From Rhodamnia argentea (Eukaryota; Streptophyta; Magnoliopsida; Myrtales; Myrtaceae), in assembly GCF_020921035.1 (NCBI RefSeq), contig NC_063160.1, forward strand, positions 19,689,595-19,753,594: a stretch of 64,000 bases of DNA, written 5' to 3'. How positions within the stretch are numbered: the stretch's first letter is position 1; each line of letters opens with the position of its first letter. A program made the position numbers and the translations under genes. Below, piece by piece: positions 10,510-49,900 of the stretch. Under the pieces are notes generated by a model, which was not told the DNA's origin, ran no database searches, and saw only the letters and a list, made by a program, of their open reading frames with translations.

Positions 10510-12550
10510 TCAGCATCCAAAGTCGTATGGCACCAGTCCTTTTAGCTCCGGTCCGTTGAGCCGGTTGTTCTCGAAGCTGAGACAAAGACGCGAGCTCATT
10601 AGCGCATTAAATCGCTGTAACGGAGTCATATATGACAATGCTAGTACGGAAGCTAGCAACAAAGTCGAGAAGGAGCAATCCATCGCCGATGAATTTGTCA
10701 TCTTGCAGCTATAATGATAGTACCCCGGCCCGTAGGGGGGATACTAAGGTGGACGATGATATCATGGGAATGCTTGAGATTTATCGCGAAAATCAAACAG
10801 CAATCCTTGTCGAGAATTCACTGGCTCGAGCTTCTCTCGGCTTGCAGTTTACTCCTTTTGTCTTCTCATTAACAAAGAAAAGACTAAACAAGCACAGCAC
10901 TTGAAAAAAAAAACAGTTATGGTTACTCTCCTCCTCCTAGGAAAATAAACGGGCCTTCTTCGTGATTATCTGTGCTATAAATTAGTCACCAGGAAACTAA
11001 ACTAGGCCAGCAGATCATGCATGCTGCTAAAAAGAACCACGTCACATGATCGCAACGAGCTACAAGTTCGAATGACTATGTCCGATTAATTGACGGTGAA
11101 TAAGATTGTCAATTAACCAACTAATGAACTTCGTGATCCAAAGGTAAAGATGCCATTCATAAATTCACGCTAGTACTGAGCAAGATCAGAGCATGCGCGC
11201 TGCTGAAGTTCTGTTTTTTCCGCCCAGTCAGGAAATTAATTTGCCCCTACCATGCATAAGATAAATGAAAAAATTAAGTCATCAAACCTTTCCATTGGGA
11301 AACTGGCGAATGGACCATCCACGGGAATTGTTCCACAGAGATCATTATTAGAAACATCACTGCAGAAGGCAAGAGATTAGGGAGAAACTCTAAACGGACA
11401 TATCATCGGAACTTCAGCACCACAATGGTAAGGTGTTGATATTTCTACTTACAGGACTTTGAGGTTAGAGAGGGTAGTGAGTTCCTTCGGTATCGGTCCC
11501 GTGAGCTTATTGTTGTCCAGACGGCTGAACCACAAACATGAACATCAAATATCAACTCGATGTTGGAATTCAAGACACATGACAGCATCAGTTAATAAAG
11601 ACAAAGAAGCTCACAGGAATCTAAGCGACTTCAGCTTAGCAAAGGCCTTTGGGATTTGTCCTTCCAATTTGTTGCCATACAAATCCATGCTAACCAGTTT
11701 TTTCAAATTACCCCACTCCTTTGGAATTTTCCCCACCAGACCATTCATGTAAAGCTCCCTGCACCATATTCCCATAAAGCACACATCTTTACTGTATAAA
11801 CTTGACAAAAAAGAAAACGAAAGTGCCTCCAGTTCCTTCAGAATCCATAAATTTTGCACAAGATCACTCAAGTTCATCAAACACAACACAAAACACACTG
11901 AGATGAAAGTAGAGGGAGACACTACAGAGAAGGATCACATACAAGTATCGCAGATGCTTGAGCTGGCCAAGCTCTGGCCCTAAAGTCCCAGAGACATTAG
12001 AATTACCCAAATCCCTGACAGAAATTCAGAACGATTATCGATTTGTAGAATTCACAATCAAAGCGGAGAATCACAAGACGAGAAAATACAAGATCAGCAA
12101 AGGGAAATTGAACCAGAAGGACTTACAATCTAATCACATGATTGTTGGAGTCACAAGTGACATGGAACCAAGTGCAGGGATTGACCAGAGTCGGGTCCCA
12201 GCTCTGAAGCACGTTGTTCGGATCTGAGAGCCTGGTTCTCAGAGCATGCAAAGCGTTTCCTTCAAGGAAAAAAAACAAAAGAGCAAGAAAGAAACAAACG
12301 ACACCCAGAATCAGAATTCATCTGAGATTGAAATTAAGGTATGGGAGAGATCGGAAGGTGCTTCCTTTTCGAAGCAACAACAGAAAGAGAGGCGCCAAAA
12401 TGACTGGGAAATTCATCAGATTGCAAAATTTGAGAGCCAAGGCATGATGGTGAGCGAGTGGGAATGAGTACCTTCCGAATTGGTTGAGAGTGCCGGGCTC
12501 AGAGACAAGAAGACGGGAAGGAGCAAACAGGAGAGAGAGAACAGACCCAT
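10510..12550 (-). CDS. Small secreted SERK-like leucine-rich repeat protein (LRR1-type)
   Basis: Seven exons (12550-12472, 12259-12127, 12014-11943, 11758-11615, 11524-11453, 11359-11288, 10576-10510) join to 212 residues. Residues 1-24 are a signal peptide ([20 protein letters not shown]). Then comes an LRRNT with the [17 protein letters not shown] motif, five LRRs, and the end [15 protein letters not shown]. There is no transmembrane or kinase domain, so this is the short form related to Arabidopsis At5g21090 and the pepper/rice LRR1 proteins, reported as apoplastic or membrane-associated defence proteins. Exons 3, 5 and 6 are each 72 nt and exon 4 is 144 nt, one LRR per 72 nt, all bounded by phase-2 introns. 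The exon pattern matches the SERK ectodomain plan. Confidence 0.9.
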
Positions 12551-12783
12551 CTTGCAGAGACTCGGAGAGGGAGAGGGAGAGAATCCCTAAACCTTAAAGC
12601 AAAACAAGAACGGGTGAGAGGAGGGAAGAGAGAGAGAGAGCGTCTAATATGGGGGTCAGCAAGACTCTGGAAAAGCTTGGAAATCAGAGTTTGACAGTTC
12701 AAAACTGAAGACTTCCATAATTGTTTTTTGGGGTTCTTTTGGTGGCTTAAGAAAAATGAAGACTTTCAGAGTCGAAAAGGACG

Positions 12784-12806
12784 GTGGCACTGGCACTGGC
12801 ACTGGC
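12784..12806. repeat. Short GGCACT hexamer repeat
   Basis: Nearly four tandem units of TGGCAC/GGCACT upstream of the LRR gene leader. Confidence 0.8.
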
Positions 12807-13194
12807 AGAGGCACGCATCTGGCGTGATCTTTACTCCCCCATAAGCGTTTTCTGCGTTGACTCTGACCCGCGTTCATATACGGCGGCTCAACAAACTGCT
12901 TAGGAATGGAAAAAAAAAAAGAAAAACAAAACAAACTGCTTTGGGCTGTGTTACTTTGTGCAAAACGCACAAATGACGGATTACATGCGAATCAACGGTT
13001 GAGATTGATTGTACCGTCCTCGTAAAGAAGTATTTTCCATCCCAAAAATACCATCATTCTTTTTCTTTGTTTATGGTTTAAGTTTCCATAAATTCAACTT
13101 CTGTCTCAGCTTGCTAATCAAAATAAAATCTTGAGGAGATAATTCTGTAATTCCAGAAATTTATTATGCCGAAGCATTTAGATGATTTTCTGAT

Positions 13195-13382
13195 GAGAGG
13201 GAGAAATTGCTGCTGCTACGCAACAAGAACAGATTAACGCCTACGTAGCCCGTAGAGAAAGCAACGGAAAGGAAGCTTCATGAAGCATGGGGGTGGGTCT
13301 AGGTGTAGGGAATTCCATGAAACCGCATCTCTCGAAACTCAATCAAGAAAAGGCAAGTTATCGATCCTTTTCACTTTGACGT
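13195..13382 (+). pseudogene. Inverted, decayed copy of the coiled-coil gene's penultimate exon end
   Basis: This plus-strand segment matches the minus-strand coding sequence at 13930-13742 over about 188 bp, at roughly four of five positions. It covers the equivalents of EREK, HEAWG and the MKPHLSKLEREK end, the splice donor (AAAAGGCAAGTTA) and about 30 bp of intron. It carries frameshifts and stops, so it is not coding. It lies about 220 bp beyond the gene's stop codon in opposite orientation. See findings for the possible foldback. Confidence 0.8.
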
Positions 13383-13602
13383 TCCCCATTGTCACAATCA
13401 TTGGGAAATTGGAATGGTCCTTGGAACATTAACCGTCAAACGAACTCATGGCAATAGTCTCAACTGTACATAGCTATCACACAACAACGCTTAACACGTC
13501 CCGTGGACGAGATTATGCTTGAAGTTTGAATCTTCTCCTAGCTCCGTCTTTACATTTATAGCTAGAAAAATCCCTCTGAAATGGTTGAATTTTGGACGAA
13601 GG

Positions 13603-16600
13603 TTATAACTCCTGCAGAGTCCTTTTTCTTTCCTCCTCTTCAGCCTTAATCCACGCTGCCTGTAGAGAGAAACGGACATTAAAGAAAGAGAGAGATCATA
13701 TTTCTGGAAATTATCCATGTTCTGCTCTAGTGCAACGGGCCACGTCAAAATGAAAAAGATCAGTAACTTGCCTTTTCTCGTTCGAGTTTCGACAGATGCG
13801 GTTTCATCGAATTCCCTAAACTTAGACCTCCCCATGCTTCGTGAAGCTCCCGCTCCCTTGCTTCTCTACGGGTTACATAGTCTTTATTAATTTGTTCTTG
13901 TTGTGTAGCAGCAGCAATCTTCTCCCTCTCTAGCCTTGATTTATGTTTAACCAAGATCTGGTGCAGACCACCCTCGGCATTCACTGGCAAGTGCGCATCG
14001 CTTCTCGTTTTTACAGAGAACCCTTCTTCTGACTTTGTCCTCATCTTCTCCTTCTCCAATCTTGAGACATGTTTCACCAAAATTTCGTCCAAACTCTCAC
14101 AATCATCAAGATTATGTCCATATTGTTTCTTTTGGTGCTTCTGATACTCATAATTGCTCCTTGAGGATAATGCTTGTAATTTTTCTCTCTCCAATCTGTG
14201 TAGTGGCTTGACTAGGATCTTGTCTAGACTTTCTTCTGTCTCTTCTCTTGCAATATTGCTCACATCCAGATTCTCTTTCCCAATAGTTTCACAATCTCGG
14301 ACTGAATTTACATCGACTTCTTCTGATTCTTTGTCTGAACTACTCATTTCACATCCTTCAACTGAGCGATTCTTCCTCCCGTTCTTCGCTTCTTCGACTT
14401 CCCTCTCCAGCCTTGAGACATGCTTCACCAAAACCTGATCCAAGCTTGGAACTCCAGAAGCGTCTTTGGCCAGACCAAGGACCCCATTTTGACCCTTCAA
14501 AGTTGGCTCATATTCTTCTCCACAATTTCTCTTCATCTCCACAATCTCCTTCTCGAGTTTTGAAGAATGCTTGACTAGCATGCTTCCAAAGTCAGGAACA
14601 GACTCGGAAGACGGAGCATTAACACCCGCATTTCTGCAATCCTTTTCCAAAGAACGATTTTGAGTGCCAGTAATTTCCGAGCTGACCTCACCAGTTATAC
14701 ATGTGCTACCCACCGTCTCATTTCCAAGATTCTTTCGACTCTTGGCCTTCTCTACCTCTATTTCAAGCTTCGACTTATGCTTGACTAAGAACTTGTCCAA
14801 ACTTGGCAGTTCTGGTGCTTGGTTCTTTCTCGCCTGTGCAGATAGGAAACTTTGATAATTGTAATTTTTGGCGGATCCTGCACCTGAAGAAGACATTCTC
14901 CTGGAGATAAAAACAACTGGAGTGTTGGAAAATCCAGCAGCACCACCTGAAGATGACATTCTCCTGGAGATAGAAACAGCTGAAGCATTGGAAAACCCAG
15001 CAGCAGCACCAGGATCCTTACTGTTCTCGATTTCAGCTAAGGCAACATTTAAACCACGGGTCGCAACTATAGTAGCAAGAGAAGAAAGTTCCCCTTCCTG
15101 CAAACGTTTGAGTCTCTCAACCATCATTTCCACCAGCTTTTCCATAGTGAGCTTTTCCAAGGACTGCCTCCTTTTGTTTCTCCTCTGTCTTGTTCCTTCA
15201 AGTGGCTTGCTAGCATTCAAATCCAAAGAGCTAATAGCATTCTTCTGTGATGCTGTTTCAAAATCTGACCCTGATCCCGAATCATATTCTGATGAAAATT
15301 CCTTTAACTCCTGATTAGCCTCACCTGTGTCTGGGTTCTGGCTGATCTTTTGCAGCAAGTCCCTGAATTCATCTTTACTAAACGATGGGCAATTGGCAAG
15401 CCTAATGAATGCACTTTTCACGGCTGCTGCCACTTCTCGGTCTACCTCAAATGCAGTTTCAAAAGAGGCTGTAACTGTATGAGTAGTAGAACCTCCTTCA
15501 TTTACAGAAGAAGCTTGTATTTTAGTAGACTGCCGAGAGCAATTTGGTGTATCGTACATGATCACTCCCATAGCTGTTGCTGCTTCAAAAGCTTCAGCAG
15601 CATTCTTCTCTGCTGTCTGCAGCAAAGATTTCGCTTCTTTACTCTGAATCCTGTAAACAAAAAATGAAGCAACTAGTCAGTCAGTTGTCAATGAACTAAG
15701 AATAGGGTCCTGAAAGCCCTACGGGACCCAAGCCGAATATAATGTAGTAAACAAGTACTCCAAATGCGTCAAAAGCTAGTAAAATGATGTCACCTATTAC
15801 TGAGAAAGTTGCACACATTAACTTGTAATCTTTTATTTCCAATTCCCAAAGCACTAGTTTTATTGATGCCCTTCTCAGTACCACATAATACAATCGAGAA
15901 ACCCAAGCGTTTATACTCCTTACCTGGCTGCTTGTAGTATTCGACTCCAGGATGCTTCCACCAATGCAGCTTTTCGAGCCTCCATTGCCCGGTGTGCAGC
16001 GTCTCTTGCCGCCATCTTTTCTCTAAGTACCCTCGAGTAATGTGGATTCGCATCATCTAAAGTCTGATCGAGACTTAAGTTCATGCCATCTCTTTCCTGA
16101 ATTAAACTAACTCAGTGGAAATTCCATTGAAAGGTGATGCCTACTCGGGGGAAATACAGGATGAATATTACCTGAAGCATTTTTATCTTCCTCTCTAAGT
16201 AGGAGTCCACCTTCTTGCGCGGAAACCAATTGATAGGAGACGTCTTACGGTGTGGAGGCTTCTTAATCAGTGAAGTGAATCGGTTGAGGGCTGTTATTGA
16301 TTGCCTTGTTTCCTTCAAGAGTTTATTCTGCATTAAGGGTTTGATTATCATCACATAATCGAATAAAAGCAATGAAAGAAACTGAGAGAAGATCCTTATT
16401 ATACGCAATCTGGGATTTGAGGATCAATCTGGGATCGGATACAACCAGACCACCTTCCACCGTGTTAAAAGAATACGAAGTGGAAAATCAAGCATTTTCT
16501 CGCAGATTTATCCCAAAGAGTCAAATGAAGCGTGAAGCTTTGAACAGGGGATTACTTAACATATCAGTCCAACAAGCAAACAAAACTCAATTAGCATAGA

Positions 16601-40277: not shown

Positions 40278-41161
40278 GGCAACTGCAAAAGATTGACCAT
40301 AAAAACCACAATGTAAGCCCTAAAAAATTTTGGGTCCTTCATGAAGTTAGCAAAATTCATAAGCTGAAACAACACTACAACAACCCAGTGCACGACAAGA
40401 GGTAAAACCAATCAGAAAGATCAATGTATTCATGCGTGACCCAGAGCATACCAAGAGGAAACTTCCATGGGAAAGATCAACGCATCCATGAGCAGGCAAC
40501 AATCATGAAGAAACTGATACCAAATTGGTGAGGAAGAAGAAGACCTAAAAATACCTTTCCCGGCGAAGATAGAAACTGACTAGACTGAGTTTCAAGCAGC
40601 TAGTTGTTGGAGAGGGACTACTACAACTACAGGTTTTCTCATTCAAAAAGACTTAGGAATTGAACCACATTGAAGGAAAAAATAAACACTACCCACGCCC
40701 CGAAAACCAGATAGCCTGTAGAAGGAAATGTTGTCAGTTTACGCAGATGGTGAGTGGACCAAGTGATTAAGAGATTAACGCCAATCAAACTTGGGCTTTC
40801 GCGATTCTACAACCATGAGGCTACACGTGGAGACATAGTCGTGACGAAAGTACTTGTCTATGAATTCAAAAACCCTCACGGTGAAGGTTCACATCGAGAT
40901 CCAACATCAAGTAATTAAGCGGTTTCATAGTTACCATTATTCAGATACCCAGAAACCAATGAACTGCATGCATATGCATCTCTGTAGCTATTTCGCTATT
41001 CTTCATGCTCATAAACATTAACGGCCAGCAATTAAATAGATCCACCACATAGGTATGCACCGACCATTACATTCCAAGAAATGGCATCAAATCAAACAAC
41101 CTCTCTGCAGCAATAACATTACCGCATTTCACATAAACATCAAGAACAGAGTTTGCCAACA

Positions 41162-41579
41162 CGGAATCAACATGAATTGGGTTTCCGATGATCCACCCAT
41201 GAACACCTTTTCCCAATTAAGAAAATTATGTTAACACAGTGAGATCAACAAACACATGGTATCTGATTGATCCAATTAAGAAGCACAGGACATGAAGAAC
41301 ACTAGTCAACCATTCATAAGACTTGATCTAATTAAGAAGCAGCAGAATCACCCAATGTCCAAAATGAACCGATGATCCAACTGCAAATACAAGCTCAATT
41401 ACCTCCCAAACAACACATTCAACTGTAAATTTTTCAATGAGGTTCAAGTGCTCTTGAATCACTCCGTAATAACAAATTGATTCTCTGAACGAACAAAGAC
41501 CCAGATGTTAGCCATTAGTCAAAATCAAGGAATGGGTCCTGGGTAGATGGGGTAGAAATCGTGACTCGTGAACAATTAC
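41162..41579. repeat. Direct repeat S, left copy (flanks copy B)
   Basis: From CGGAATCAACATG to GAACAATTA this non-coding segment is repeated almost exactly at 42406-42902. Copy B of the 830-bp duplication sits precisely between the two. Confidence 0.9.
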
Positions 41580-42406
41580 GCGAAGTGGAATCCGAGAAAG
41601 GGGCAGGACAGAAAGAGGAAATAGACACTCACCGGTACAGTGGGAGCGGCCGACGAACGCCTTCAAATTTAAAGTGGATAGCCCGCGGTGCTGCTCCTAC
41701 CTTGGTCGGTTCGGTCGCGGGTATATGCAGGAACGGTCACGGCCTCATCACGGATGGTTTCGCAAAGGAGATCCGCGCCCCTTCCGCCCTTTGTCGCCGT
41801 GAGGGAGGCACCGTCGAGGCTGAAGAGCTGAACTGAGTTGTGGTTGAAGTGTTCTGGGCGGCCGACTGTCAACAGACAATCTATCAGCGGTGGATTGCTT
41901 ATCGGGCCGAAAGGAAAATCCATGGGCCGCTCGGTCTGCCCAGGCTTACCCCATGAAGCGGGCCGATTCTACTGTGTGTATATATAAACAGGCTAGTTCA
42001 GAAAATGGCCGTTCTAGTCCCACTCCAATCTTTTGGAATGGGTCCACAAAATAGGTTTATGGAACCAATTCATCCTTGAAATCGATCGTTCGTACTTTTA
42101 AATTTGTTGTGTTTCTTTGTTTCCCTATTCACGGAACAATCCGCCGGATCTTACAAATATTTTTGGATCGTAACTAAAGAATCGGTTGTGGCATATGAAG
42201 GAAGACGATCGGTTCTCTGACTGTAGAATCCGAATGAGACCCGACACAAAATCACCCCATTGTTGTTGTGTGGTACATGGATGATATTTGAGGGATTTTA
42301 GGACCAATTTTGGCTTGTTTTCGTCCGAGGAGGTATCATCACTGAGATATAAATTGGGCAAGCTGAGAATAATGTGTCGAACGCGTTTTCAAAAAAGTTG
42401 AAAAAC
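41576..42406. repeat. Copy B of the ~830-bp dispersed duplication
   Basis: Same unit as 35388-36220. Relative to copy A it has single-base differences and keeps the first-exon frame intact on the minus strand. The minus-strand 78-codon frame at 42361-42125 is also kept in copy A with two residue changes, but I do not recognise it, and recent duplication alone could explain the similarity. Confidence 0.95.
41701..41923 (-). pseudogene. First-exon fragment of an unidentified gene, copy B (open)
   Basis: ATG at 41923 opens 74 codons (MDFPFGPISNPPLIDCLL, RPEHFNHNSVQLFSLDGASL, VPAYTRDRTDQ) up to a donor AAG|GTAGGA at 41701. It looks like a genuine first coding exon, but no later exon follows before the S repeat and COQ5 leader. 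It is therefore most likely a captured gene fragment. Function unknown. Confidence 0.55.
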
Positions 42407-42902
42407 GGAATCAACATGAATTGGGTTTCCGATGATCCACCCATGAACACCTTTTCCCAGTTAAGAAAATTATGTTAACACAGTGAGCTCAACATACACA
42501 AGGTATCTGATTGATCCAATTAAGAAGCACAGGACATGAAGAACACTAGTCAACCATTCATAAGACTTGATCTAATTAAGAAGCAGCAGAATCACCCAAT
42601 GCCCAAAATGAACCAATGATCCAACTGCAAATACAAGCTCAATTACCTCCCAAACAACACATTCAACTGTAAATTTTTCAAAGAGGTTCAAGTGCTCTTG
42701 AATCACTCCGTAATAACAAATTGATTCTCTGAACGAACAAAGACCCAGATGTTAGTATGGAGTGATTCAAGTGCTTTTGAATCACTCCGTAATAACAAAT
42801 TGATTCTCTGAACGAACAAAGACCCAGATGTTAGCCATTAGTCAAACTCAAGGAATGGGTCCTGGGTAGATGGGGTAGAAATCGTGACTCATGAACAATT
42901 AG
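42406..42902. repeat. Direct repeat S, right copy, with an internal ~80-bp duplication
   Basis: Repeats 41162-41579. Within it the segment ending CACTCCGTAATAACAAATTG and GACCCAGATGTTAG occurs twice in tandem (42704-42754 and 42785-42836), explaining its greater length. After GAACAATTA it continues into unique sequence, whereas the left copy continues into copy B. Confidence 0.9.
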
Positions 42903-43445
42903 GCGAGAACTTTAGAGACGGCTTCGATTCGAAACCATAGCGAACCCTACAGACGGCGTCTGCACGAACTCGCAAATAGAGTCGGTCACTCGTGTACCAA
43001 GCCTCTGCATGAATCATTGGATACCAAGCATAACTGAAGCTACCAATCCAACCCTTCAAATCGAGCCCCGCAAATTGTTTGGAAAGTACCTGCATACCTC
43101 GCGATTTCAAGACTTGTTGCTCGAGATCTTCACCGGCGACAAGAGGGTCGAGTCATCCCAGCCATACGAGGCGTCGCGTCGGGACGAGGAGGACAGTCGG
43201 GGGGCGATTGGAGTGGGTCGGTGGTTGTGCTCCGGGGTTTGCGGAACGATGGAAGAGCGCCGCGGCGTGATGTTTCAGAACCGAGCACGAGCAGTGAGCG
43301 CGAATGATGGAGATGGCGTCGGGGCGGGGGGGGCGGCTTGGGCTTTTAATTTTCGGGTCTGGATTAGGGTATTGTTGGGCCGGGTCGGGTCGGGTCGGGT
43401 GGGGGTGCGGGTGGGCCGGCGTGGACTTTTTGACACCCCTAGTAG
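42903..43445. other. GC-rich promoter-like region; possible untranslated exon on the minus strand
   Basis: Becomes GC-rich from 43120, with a (CGGGT)n stretch at 43376-43402. On the minus strand GCGAG|GTATGC (43100-43096) is a fair donor after a GC-rich run, so this could be a distal leader exon of COQ5 or of an unrelated transcript. Not resolvable here. Confidence 0.3.
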
Positions 43446-43746: not shown

Positions 43747-44290
43747 GCGCCTACATATTTTATTGGAGATAGAAAAATCAAAACCCATGTAGTTCTTTTA
43801 CCATTGATAGATGCAACTTACCTCATCGTCAATCATCGCTACCCGTTCCGATACCTGTGACGGTGGTATCTCCATCATCATCGAAGAAATCGGCTTCATT
43901 ATTGCGGTCAATCTCTTGTTGTCAATGTTTAGCCTTTGTCCAATCACCGACACAAGCTTGAGCCTCCATTGAATTCGGATGTAATCTTGAACGTCGGTCT
44001 TTCAAAATATTACCTTCGGCGCCTACATATTTTATTGGAGATAGAAAAATCAAAACCCATGTAGTTCTTTTACCATTGATAGATGCAACTTACCTCATCG
44101 TCAATCATCGCTACCCGTTCCGATACCCGTGACGGTGGTATCTCCATCATCATCGAAGAAATCGGCTTCATTATTGCGATCAATCTCTTGTTGTCAATGT
44201 TTAGCCTTTGTTCAATCACCGACACAAGCTTGAGCCTCCACCGAATTCGGATGTAATCTTGAACGTCGGTCTTTCAAAATATTACCTTCA
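43747..44290. repeat. 272-bp tandem duplication inside the hAT element
   Basis: 43747-44018 and 44019-44290 are almost identical head-to-tail copies. The right copy overlaps the end of the transposase's C-terminal domain. Confidence 0.95.
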
Positions 44291-46253
44291 GAGCTAAATA
44301 CTTGTTCAATCGCAACCGTTGAATAAGGAGGTGCTAAAACCTGTCTTGCAATGAGAGCAAGAATTGGGAATTAGGTTGAATGCATCTTCTACTACTCTAA
44401 ATTTTGAAATCAGTGCTGCTTTCGAAATCACTAAACTCAAAAGAAATGGTTAAATAAATCTTTATTTCAGAAATATTACATGTTGCTCCATTTTTTTCTT
44501 TTTTTGCCTATTCATCAACATTTTGTACCCTCTATTAATGCTACCTAGGTCCCCGCTTTGTCTCATTATGTTGGGAAGATCTACCATCATCTATTAGATT
44601 ATATCTACTACAAAATTCATTATACAATTCTACTATTGCGTCTTTAGCTGCTGCTTGTATAGCTCTAACATTTACCGTTGTATTCAAATGTAAACATTCA
44701 TAATACATATTCATATAATCACATAAACCATCTAATCCTATACATGGATCGAAAACAAAAGCAACCAAATAAATAAGAGGAATGTCGGTATAATAATGCA
44801 ACCATTTTGTTCGCATTGTTATAATAGTCAGAGCTAATTGATCATCTTTTTCATATTCTTCAAAAACACCAGCAATATTAACACACTCTATTATAAATAA
44901 ATGAGTGATATGATAATAAATATCGGATAAAGTATAAGTTGCATCGTTAAAAACTTTTAAAAAATCTTTTTTTTTTGTTGCAAATATCTTACTCTCGTGG
45001 GAATAAATTAGTTTCAGAAACATAATTCGAAATAAACGTACATAATAAATTTTTAAGTGCAAAAGATTGATTAAACAACTCATATGTAGAATTTCGACGA
45101 GTTCGAACATCTTTTGAAATTTTTTTTTATTTTCTTTTATTTGCTTTACAAAATATGCCCAATTCTCTTATAATTTGGGAATGTTTTCATAAAAATTGAA
45201 TTGCTCTCTTTATTAGGTTGAGAAAAACATCAAAAGTTTGTAAATCATCTTGTACACATAAATTTAAAACATGGCAAGCACATCTAATATGAAAAAATTG
45301 TCCAACAAAAGCGAGTTTACAAATCTTTTCTACATCGGGAATGGAAGCGGTATTTGCCGCGGCATTATCGAAACCAACCGAAAAAATTTTATTAATCAAA
45401 TCGTATTCTTCTAAAACTTGTCTAATTACTTTATAAATATTATTGGCCGTATGCCTATCATAAAAAACTTGAAATGCAATAGCTATTTTTTGAATATTCC
45501 AATCGTCACATATTCAATGATATGTGATACCCATATAAGAATGAGTTTACAATGATCACTCCAAATGTCTCTAGCTATATGCACACGTCCATCAAAATTC
45601 ATAAAAAAAATTTTCAAATCTTTTTTTCCTTTTTTATAAAGCTCAATAATTTGGCGTTTAAGCGTATTTCTTGAAACAAATTGTACTTGCGGAGAACATG
45701 CAATGTTTATAAAATAATTAAAACAAAAATTTTCACCAAAATTAAACGGTAAACGTTCAATGATGGCAAATCTAGCTAATTCTTCTTTATAAACTTTTTT
45801 ATTGTAACGAAATAAATGAGAAGTGTTAGGATTGACGTATTCGGAAATTTGTTGTTGGTTGGTATCGATCTCCACTTGCGTTGCATGTTTCAACCTCGGA
45901 TGTCATTTAAATGTTCCATAGCCGCCTTCACTTGTAAATTTGTATATTACCCCACAATAGTTATATTTTACCCGATACTTATTTTCGCCTAAATGTTCAT
46001 TTGTGAAGTTTTCCCATATGTTGGATGTACCCTCCCGTTTCAGCTCCTTTCTTATTGAAATTTCTTCGACATTGATAGAAGGATGGAGACTTTCTTGCGT
46101 TGAGACGTGCTCGACATTGGGAATAACGTTGATATTATCATCATCGTCTATTCAATATGCAAAATCACGAGAATCATATTCATGAAGATAATTGGATTGC
46201 CCCATCCGAATCGGGCTTTTTTCCCTGTCACCAACTCTGCTTCCACTTGCCAT
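44150..46253 (-). pseudogene. Broken hAT transposase (BED finger and hATC dimerisation domain)
   Basis: The frame opens at 46253 (MASGSRVGDREKSP), with a BED-type finger region (SNIWENFT, NKYRVKYNYCG) in which the expected first Cys of the C-x2-C pair appears to be Tyr. RNase-H-fold pieces follow (DGRVHIARDIWSDH, FDNAAANTASI, RCACHVLNL). Near 44340-44200 comes the hATC motif (LAPPYSTVAIEQVFSSEGN, RRSRLHPNSVEAQACVG). Stop codons (for example after DFAY and before HPRLKH) and frameshifts break it repeatedly, so it cannot make active transposase. Confidence 0.85.
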
Positions 46254-46680: not shown

Positions 46681-46934
46681 GAAGTGGGAGCTTCGGAGAA
46701 GCAGGTGGAATGAAGTGAGTTTCGGCGGTCTCCGGCGTCATCGCATGCGACAGTCGGCCTGGGCCGGGACGATAGCGGAAGAAGACGATGATGAGTTCGA
46801 GCTTCATGAAGTGGGAGCTTCGGAGAAGCAGGTGGAATGAAGCGAGTTTCAGCGGTCTCCGGCGTCACTGCATGTGACGGTCGGCCTGGGCCGGGACGAT
46901 AGCGGAAGAAGACGATGATGAGTTCGAGCTTCAT
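46681..46934. repeat. 127-bp tandem duplication
   Basis: 46681-46807 and 46808-46934 are head-to-tail copies starting GAAGTGGGAGCTTCGG, differing at only a few positions. It lies just outside the right end of the hAT element. It is GC-rich and leaves a frame open on the minus strand, but I recognise no protein. Confidence 0.95.
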
Positions 46935-49900
46935 GAAGTGCGCGAGCCCATTTCTAAATACTGGTGGGCCCAATTTGTTTGGATAAAAAAGGGCTCGGAC
47001 TATATAAAGTGGGACGCACAGGGAATCGCCAAATTAAGGGCCCAACGTGAAAAGAATTATATCCTTCGACGACGGTGACACACCAAAAAAACCGACCAAT
47101 AGAAATAGAGAGCTCAAAATTATGAAGGAAAAGTTAATCGAGATGGTTGACCCAAAAAACAAAAGAACGAAAAAAAAAAAAGTCAGTCGAGATGCATATT
47201 ACAAGAGCAACAATATGATTGATTGATTACATCACATTAGTAGTAAACCACTATTTTTGTAGAATGATTTTTCTTTCTTGAGATGATCATAAGTTTCAAG
47301 TCGTAACGAAAGTATTTGTAATAGACCACGAATTGCAAGACCGGCCCTCTTGTCATGGTAAGTTATGCAATTGCGTTCTTGGGTGGAATCGGCGTGGTCT
47401 ACTAAAACCAATGAGTTGTTTTAAGGAGAACATCACAAAGGAAAAGAGAAAATGTCGTTCCTTGTAATGTAGCTCCAAGATGAAACCAAAACAAAGTGTT
47501 TTTTTTCTAATGAATAAAAAGATTGTCTTCAACGATGTAAAATGGTGCCAGTAAATTGGTGCAATGCCCGGCACGTGTCTAAGCAGAAGAGTCTTGCCCA
47601 AATGGAAAAAAAAAAAAAGAGTGAAGCCTCACTGGGATTTCTCCAGCGTTGGGACTAGCAGAGCCTTCGTCAATGCGAAGTCATTGTCACTTCTTACAAG
47701 GATCATTAATATCCTCGACCCCAAGAAGTCGAGAAAACCTGTCTGGCCGACACTTCTTTCATTTATACTCGCGCACGGGAAGAGTCAAACAAACTTAAAC
47801 TACTCATCGTGTAAGCCAGGATTAAGAACATCTCCACCTTTTCTGCAGCGATGCTGGAAGATGGAAAAACAGAGCATCAGCGAAGTGGGTGCCTACAAGT
47901 CAATGCATATAAGACTTGGAAAGCAAAAGAGTGGTGGTGGTCCGCATCGGTTTTCAGTGAGTCAAGAATGGCAAGTGCCCAGCTAAAACCCACGATCTTT
48001 AATTGCGAAGCCAGGACGCCCACGAGCGTTCTTGGAGTTAGCATCTCTGTTGTCCCTTTGAAGCTTGCCAAGGCTGAACATATTGGGGGTCGACAAAGCA
48101 GGTCAAAATCTAAACCTTGAATGGAAATATTACTCTGCAATCTCATGTTTCAAGGCACATACCGCATCTAGATCCACAAACTTTCGGCGAGTGCCGGCTA
48201 GTCCGCCTTTCGAGCCCCTACGAGTTCGGCTCCGAACAAAAGAAGCAACATTTGATAGCTTTCCAGTTCCACTGTACATGAATGCATAATTGTTTCTGTG
48301 TCAACCCAGAAAATAGGATGAAGGTGACCCTTCTGATTTGTACGTATCAAGAGATGCCATTGCCATTGCCATTTTTGTAGAAGTGTGAGTAGGTGGAGAG
48401 CTCAATGAAGGTCCCCCACGTCCACTTTTTGTCATCATTCTCGGACTATTAGCTAGCTGGCGTTTGAAGAATTTAGTTGTTTTCACGACTAATGAATCAA
48501 GCCCCAGATTTTCTTTTCCCTTCCCTTGACCAAACAAGGGAAAGAGCTAATGAATATGGAGGGCCTCCACAACCTTATTCTTCTCGACTTGTCTGCTTCA
48601 TTGGATTTAATATCAAGTCAAGCGCATCACTGAGAAGGGAGTGAAATATGTGCCTGGAGGCAAGAGAAGATAACATGTGTATCGTGTCCCTTCGATCCTT
48701 TAATGCCTGGACCTTCTCATGTGAAGATGATAGCTGGGACATGGAGAAGACCTTTTTTCTTCTGCGCATCTCTAGTTGTAGCTGGGAAGCACACTATGCG
48801 TCTAGTTTAGCGAATGTTTTGCTCGATGTAATGTAGCAATTTAAATGGGCTATGAAGAGTGCTTGACAAAAAGCGTCGGTTGTGTTGGACGATACCGCAA
48901 AACCATCATTTTGAAGGACACAACATGGGTTATGACTTATTAGATGTTTTAGCCACTGGACAAGCATCTATCAAGAGCACTTGCCCATAGGTTCTGGAGT
49001 TTCTCCAGTTCACACTTCGCAAACAGGTTGATTGCATGTTAAATGACAGAACTAATAACATTACTTACTAGACATCTTTTTGTCCGTCCCCTGTTTTGCC
49101 GCTAGTTCATCACATCCTGTCCCCCGAAAAACCAATATTTGGCCTTCTCCTTCACTCAAAATCGCATCATTGGAGATAAGTTTCGAGCCAGGACGAGAGA
49201 GATAGTCCCGGGGCTATGGGGTTTTGTTGTGCAGACTCTTATGTACCCAGTGGCTTCCAATTACTGTAAGACGTCATGCACAAGAATTAGCTTGAAAAAC
49301 ACAAGGCTACATGCAGCCAAACCAGAGACACACACCACAGCAGCTTATCACCCCACGTTGTGGTCCAATGAGCAGAGGGACTTTCAACAAAAGTAAAGAA
49401 CCTTTGACAAATGGTCGCAGGGAGCGACCCCCCCTCCCCCGTGGTCCATTGAAGACATCTCCCATCTGGGAACAGAAAAAAGAGAAAAGCTACCCCCAGC
49501 CTTCTTCACCGTGAGAGAATGGTAAAGAATATCACGCGTGTGGACATGGCTCAACTTACTGAGATTGTTCCAAAAACACTCTTCACCATAGGATAAACAT
49601 CTCTGACAGGAAAAAACAAGCAAATAAATAGAACATTCACTTAAGTTTTTCTACAGATTAAGCCGACCAACAATAAAGGTGAAGACTAAAGAAGGAGTAG
49701 AGCTGGAACTCCCTATAACGAGCCATTTCATACAGTGAATTACAATGCCTTCGTTCACACCTTTCAGTTTCAACAACTGTGCTAAAAGAAAACAACAATA
49801 CAATCAGAACCCTAACAATCTTACCTGGCAAGTGGGGAATTCACTTCCACCAGCCAGGCACCAGACACACAAAAATCCTTCAAAAGTCTACCACATGACA

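Follow-up and report, generated by a model that had tools for sequence, protein, structure and literature searches.

An inverted copy of an exon end and its splice donor beside the parent gene in Rhodamnia argentea, predicted to fold back over that donor

A coiled-coil-like gene on the minus strand of Rhodamnia argentea contig NC_063160.1 is followed by an inverted copy of the end of its own penultimate exon and the beginning of its last intron, and RNA containing both copies is predicted to fold into a long stem that buries the GC splice donor of that intron. The repeat lies in the window (the whole stretch of 64,000 nucleotides that was analysed, whose numbering is used throughout), and it is real and far beyond chance. 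It is probably an old, local, partial inverted duplication that has been drifting ever since, with no more than a modest influence on splicing or siRNA production.

Comparison of the window with itself by blastn aligns the plus strand of 13195-13391 with the minus strand of 13733-13930 at 83.6% identity over 201 columns (E 2.65e-52). This confirms and extends the sequence-only reading, which had matched 13195-13382 to 13742-13930 with roughly four positions in five agreeing; the geometry that it described, with arms of about 188 nt and a loop of about 360 nt holding the last exon, stands in outline, the arms now measuring 197 and 198 nt and the loop 341 nt. Arm 1, the parental arm (13733-13930, minus strand), combines the end of the penultimate exon (159 nt, 13930-13772), through which the open reading frame runs on, with the opening 39 nt of the last intron. 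Arm 2 (13195-13391, plus strand) is its inverted copy and begins 211 nt past the stop codon. The loop (13392-13732, minus strand) holds the remainder of the last intron, the last coding exon, the stop codon and the sequence beyond. In a global alignment of the arms, 168 of the 194 ungapped columns are identical; the 26 substitutions comprise 16 transitions and 10 transversions, and seven further columns fall into four gaps (1, 3, 1 and 2 nt in arm 2 relative to the exon). When translated, arm 2 matches residues 577-625 of the gene's protein at 67% identity, with one stop.

The gene model is predicted from the DNA. The large coding exon (13775-15649, minus strand), which served as a protein query of 625 aa, would encode a coiled-coil-like protein; its two Pfam matches both fall under their cut-offs, and none lies above. 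The last intron, read at 13771-13660, would be a GC-AG intron of 112 nt, and its donor (AAG/GCAAGT, 13766-13774, minus strand) sits in arm 1, as had been claimed. GC-AG splicing yields a conceptual translation that passes from ...LSKLEREK directly into AAWIKAEEEERKRTLQEL and ends at the TAA stop codon (13605-13603, minus strand) that closes the last coding exon. A neighbouring GT, the one alternative donor tested, leads to a stop at most five codons past the junction and was rejected. The protein carries a recurring short motif of the type LVKHxSRLExE (13775-15649), seen partly as short DNA repeats around 13917-14446, and a short tandem duplication in the same exon at 14881-15010 (14881-14947/14944-15010, 88%) makes the segment ISRRMSSSG occur twice. 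An LRR-type gene lies downstream on the same strand (Pfam LRRNT_2, E 2.1e-11, plus LRR matches).

How would a transcript containing both arms fold? Minus-strand RNA from 13940 to 13190, the fold of which had been proposed as a check, reached -374.4 kcal/mol, compared with a mean of -206.3 (sd 5.85) for 20 dinucleotide shuffles, which makes it a very stable foldback. Accessibility of the donor was taken as the unpaired probability at its nine positions in a model transcript from 14200 to 13140. This value was 0.0008 with arm 2 present and 0.75 both when the RNA stopped before arm 2 and when arm 2 was removed, while shuffling of arm 2 (n=12) gave a mean of 0.68 (range 0.52-0.77). The stem includes three uninterrupted Watson-Crick stretches of at least 12, the longest of which (15 nt, approximately 13778-13764) spans the donor; with G:U pairs allowed, a stretch of 21 nt within the intron part becomes the longest. 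The 159-nt exon part of arm 1 still pairs back onto arm 2 once the transcript is spliced as predicted. All of these are equilibrium predictions for bare RNA, with kinetics, proteins and ribosomes outside the model. The predicted fold hides a splice site, as expected of an RNA structure that controls splicing. The proposed foldback over the donor thus held up in silico, whereas the consequences suggested for splicing, small RNAs and MIRNA birth received no positive evidence.

If polyadenylation occurred before 13391, the far arm would lie outside the transcript, there would be no foldback, and the copy would only be a fragment between two genes, upstream of the LRR gene. A scan for 11 poly(A) hexamers on the minus strand of 13640-12601 found a single AATAAA, a candidate poly(A) signal at 13160-13165, about 30 nt past arm 2; the other hexamers found were TATAAA at 13560, ATAAAT at 13559 and 13164, ATAATA at 13167 and AAAATA at 13036. 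Since the only AATAAA in about 1 kb sits just past the far arm, a 3'UTR that spans arm 2 and continues to 13195 is plausible. From the stop codon to this signal is 437 nt, or 240 nt once the 197-nt copy is subtracted, a distance that would suit an ordinary 3'UTR that took an insertion. Insertion into an existing 3'UTR fits these distances but is not proof, because plant poly(A) signals are degenerate and the TATAAA at 13560, which follows the stop codon by about 43 nt, would permit the transcript to end before arm 2. A 3'UTR that takes in arm 2 would also have to exceed 437 nt. On the other side, the sole AATAAA and the 240-nt spacing argue against an early end, and a far arm left untranscribed appears doubtful, though by no means negligible. 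This outcome overlaps with the reading of the copy as neutral, and the likelihoods given here to the separate readings therefore do not sum to one.

Could the repeat be mobile? A search of the genome DNA (346.7 Mb, 74 contigs) with 188 bases of the copy gave at least two matches, both at this locus, and a protein search of the genome with the 625-aa exon gave at least two, the gene itself and arm 2, with no paralogue of the coiled-coil gene found. These counts are lower bounds, so the term "single copy" is valid only at the sensitivity of the searches. Inverted arms with a short spacer have the outline of a MITE, and palindromic repeats occur nearby; a MITE or other terminal-inverted-repeat transposable element might have captured the exon. 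However, such an element would be expected to form a repeated family, and the copy was found at just these two places (again a lower bound). In addition, one arm belongs to an in-frame exon of the gene itself, and no target-site duplication is visible by eye at 13195 or 13391, where old junctions may have decayed. A transposon origin is thus unsupported, the copy search having matched only two places, and is highly improbable.

A survey of inverted repeats covered 263.6 kb of contiguous sequence with the window in it, and took in matches of 60 columns or more with E not above 1e-8 and a gap of no more than 3000. Of the 11 inverted matches listed, two are 150 columns or longer and 80% or more identical, and both of these lie in the window; three of the 11 minus-strand self-matches overlap themselves as palindromes. 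Among the four pairs listed (71-77%) in five stretches (50 kb) of five other contigs, none reaches 80%. Local inverted duplication of gene ends may recur in this region, although two cases in one window, from a small and mostly local survey, are a small sample. The second inverted duplication (34704-34970/36488-36737, 84% over 269 columns; the best local piece has 227 identities in 248 ungapped columns) copies the 5' end, with the start codon, of a neighbouring minus-strand gene whose protein begins MAEKIALPLILPSPPSP, by eye presumably a PPR protein, and has a further block at 35213-35298/36391-36476. One copy of a direct repeat (35378-36220/41569-42406, 96.8% over 843 columns) lies between its arms. 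Other direct repeats, some of them tandem, with 95-99% identity occur at 41158-42906, 43747-44303 and 46681-46940, and one pair about 4.4 kb apart (55093-55237/59669-59815) is 90% identical over 147 columns.

The content of the copy constrains its origin. Its 39 nt of last-intron sequence rule out a spliced mRNA as the source; given that the parental arm is exon for 159 nt and intron for 39 nt, genomic DNA or an unspliced transcript must have served as template. Arm 2 is ruled out as the ancestral arm, since the exon frame stays open and the copy differs from it by the four small gaps, and a tail-to-tail duplication of the whole gene is unsupported, the blastn similarity stopping at 13195/13930 and 13391/13733. 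The GC donor is present in both arms and is thus probably older than the duplication. Differences between the arms number 6/52, 3/51 and 10/50 at the three codon positions (9/103 for positions 1 and 2 together) and 7/39 in the intron proper, a pattern consistent with drift along the whole copy and coding constraint on the parent. With only 26 differences the tests have low power, and neither the excess at position 3 (p = 0.066) nor that of the intron over positions 1 and 2 (p = 0.16) is significant. The corrected distance at positions 1 and 2 is 0.093; at plant substitution rates of about 7e-9 to 2.5e-9 per site per year, and if change fell mostly in the copy, its age would very roughly be 13-37 million years.

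If the hairpin were a functional element, its maintenance might be expected to leave a signal between the arms, and none emerged, at low power. There was no bias towards changes that preserve pairing (G:U in nine of the 16 transitions, A:C in seven, p = 0.80), and no special conservation of the donor stretch: a run of at least 15 identical columns arose in 99.5% of 5000 shuffles, so the identical block over the donor is unremarkable. A stem of such stability could nevertheless matter and leave no mark of this kind, and from a single genome neutral persistence cannot be told apart from maintenance.

Why, then, has the copy persisted beside its parent? The likeliest course of events is that a partial inverted duplication left a copy of the exon end, along with 39 nt of intron, about 211 nt past the stop codon, and that the copy then decayed roughly like neutral sequence. 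In transcripts running past 13195 the arms would pair, forming a stem of about 195 bp over the GC donor. In most transcripts the small last intron would presumably be spliced, or the stem opened by ribosomes or helicases, so that the gene works. The modest effects might be some retention of the last intron, which is predicted to exchange the final 18 residues for ASY and a stop, and possibly a low level of siRNAs made by Dicer-like enzymes. A stronger role in splicing can be imagined, in which the stem forms while the last intron is still in place, conceals its donor and determines how transcripts divide between spliced and intron-retained forms, perhaps in response to temperature or the speed of transcription. 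Such a working switch in cis would draw on the loss of donor accessibility that depends on arm 2 and its sequence, and retention would alter the C-terminal 18 residues only. Set against it are the lack of any excess of pairing-preserving changes, the ordinary conservation around the donor, and a folding model that leaves aside co-transcriptional splicing and proteins; we regard it as rather unlikely.

Small RNAs offer another role. The stem could be a proto-MIRNA or siRNA hairpin, cut by Dicer-like enzymes into small RNAs against its own gene, in competition with mRNA output. As expected of such a locus, its arms arose through inverted duplication of a coding sequence, a process documented as giving rise to young MIRNA and siRNA loci in plants (PMC1790633, PMC12825306), and the exon part would find its partner in arm 2 even after splicing. 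However, mismatches and gaps are spread along the stem, the protein search offered no paralogue as a second target, and a MIRNA gene would be a locus apart from its parent, whereas here one arm is the parent's working exon. A search of Rfam over 12500-14500 (E up to 1) produced two matches that lie under their gathering scores and are not miRNAs; a match to a known family is not required of a new one. On balance this role, too, is unlikely, but like the splicing switch it is a live alternative. The two roles might also be joined: the gene would have produced for itself an arm antisense to its GC donor, a putative competitor of U1 and at the same time a Dicer substrate, so that the same arm would act as a splicing brake and as a source of self-targeting siRNAs in cis, before a separate MIRNA locus arises. 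This combination seems quite improbable.

The preferred reading, a drifting local duplication, can be set beside several known systems. Evidence for an origin by inverted duplication of protein-coding sequence is given for 16 young MIRNA loci in PMC1790633, and the model of Allen et al. 2004 is cited in PMC3237417. Those Arabidopsis loci share self-complementary arms of such origin with the present case, but were compared with separate protein-coding genes, while here one arm is the parent's working exon. Endogenous inverted repeats are described as generic substrates of siRNA-generating Dicers in PMC12825306, which also notes the miR838 hairpin in intron 14 of DCL1, where Dicer processing gives nonproductive transcript fragments. 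That hairpin and the one predicted here both lie inside a pre-mRNA; the former stays within one intron and yields a known miRNA, whereas the latter would span exon, intron and 3' flank. In rice Ghd2, a MITE in the 3'UTR represses translation (PMC5338036). The inverted-repeat structure in a 3'UTR, here a predicted one, is common to both, but the Ghd2 element is a transposon, and here the second arm consists of exon and intron from the gene itself, with no further copy found in the genome. The chalcone synthase repeats of the soybean I locus, which spawn endogenous RNA interference (PMC6710647), are likewise gene repeats at one locus, but belong to a gene family, in contrast to a 198-bp fragment for which no paralogue was found. 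Hairpin transgenes and the relation of RNA structure to splicing are treated in PMC4238362 and PMC7404189, respectively, and small-RNA clusters near genes, with no general effect on expression, in PMC1820830. Among the papers listed, titles and abstract openings, a weak basis, described no case in which the 3' flank of a gene contains its splice donor in inverted copy. Formation of circular RNA through flanking repeats was also considered; the far arm comes after the last exon as read from the sequence.

Inverted duplication of a gene segment is known raw material for young MIRNA and siRNA loci in plants, and models of the birth of young MIRNA genes begin with it. What appears unusual here is that the copy stays beside its parent gene and would cover its splice donor. 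Lying next to the parent, probably within its transcript and over the donor at about 16% divergence, it would offer a natural experiment on the fate of such foldbacks, whether they do harm, are neutral or undergo processing. At present the locus is chiefly a clean, testable example; if processing of its RNA proved true, splice control and the birth of small RNAs would be joined at one gene.
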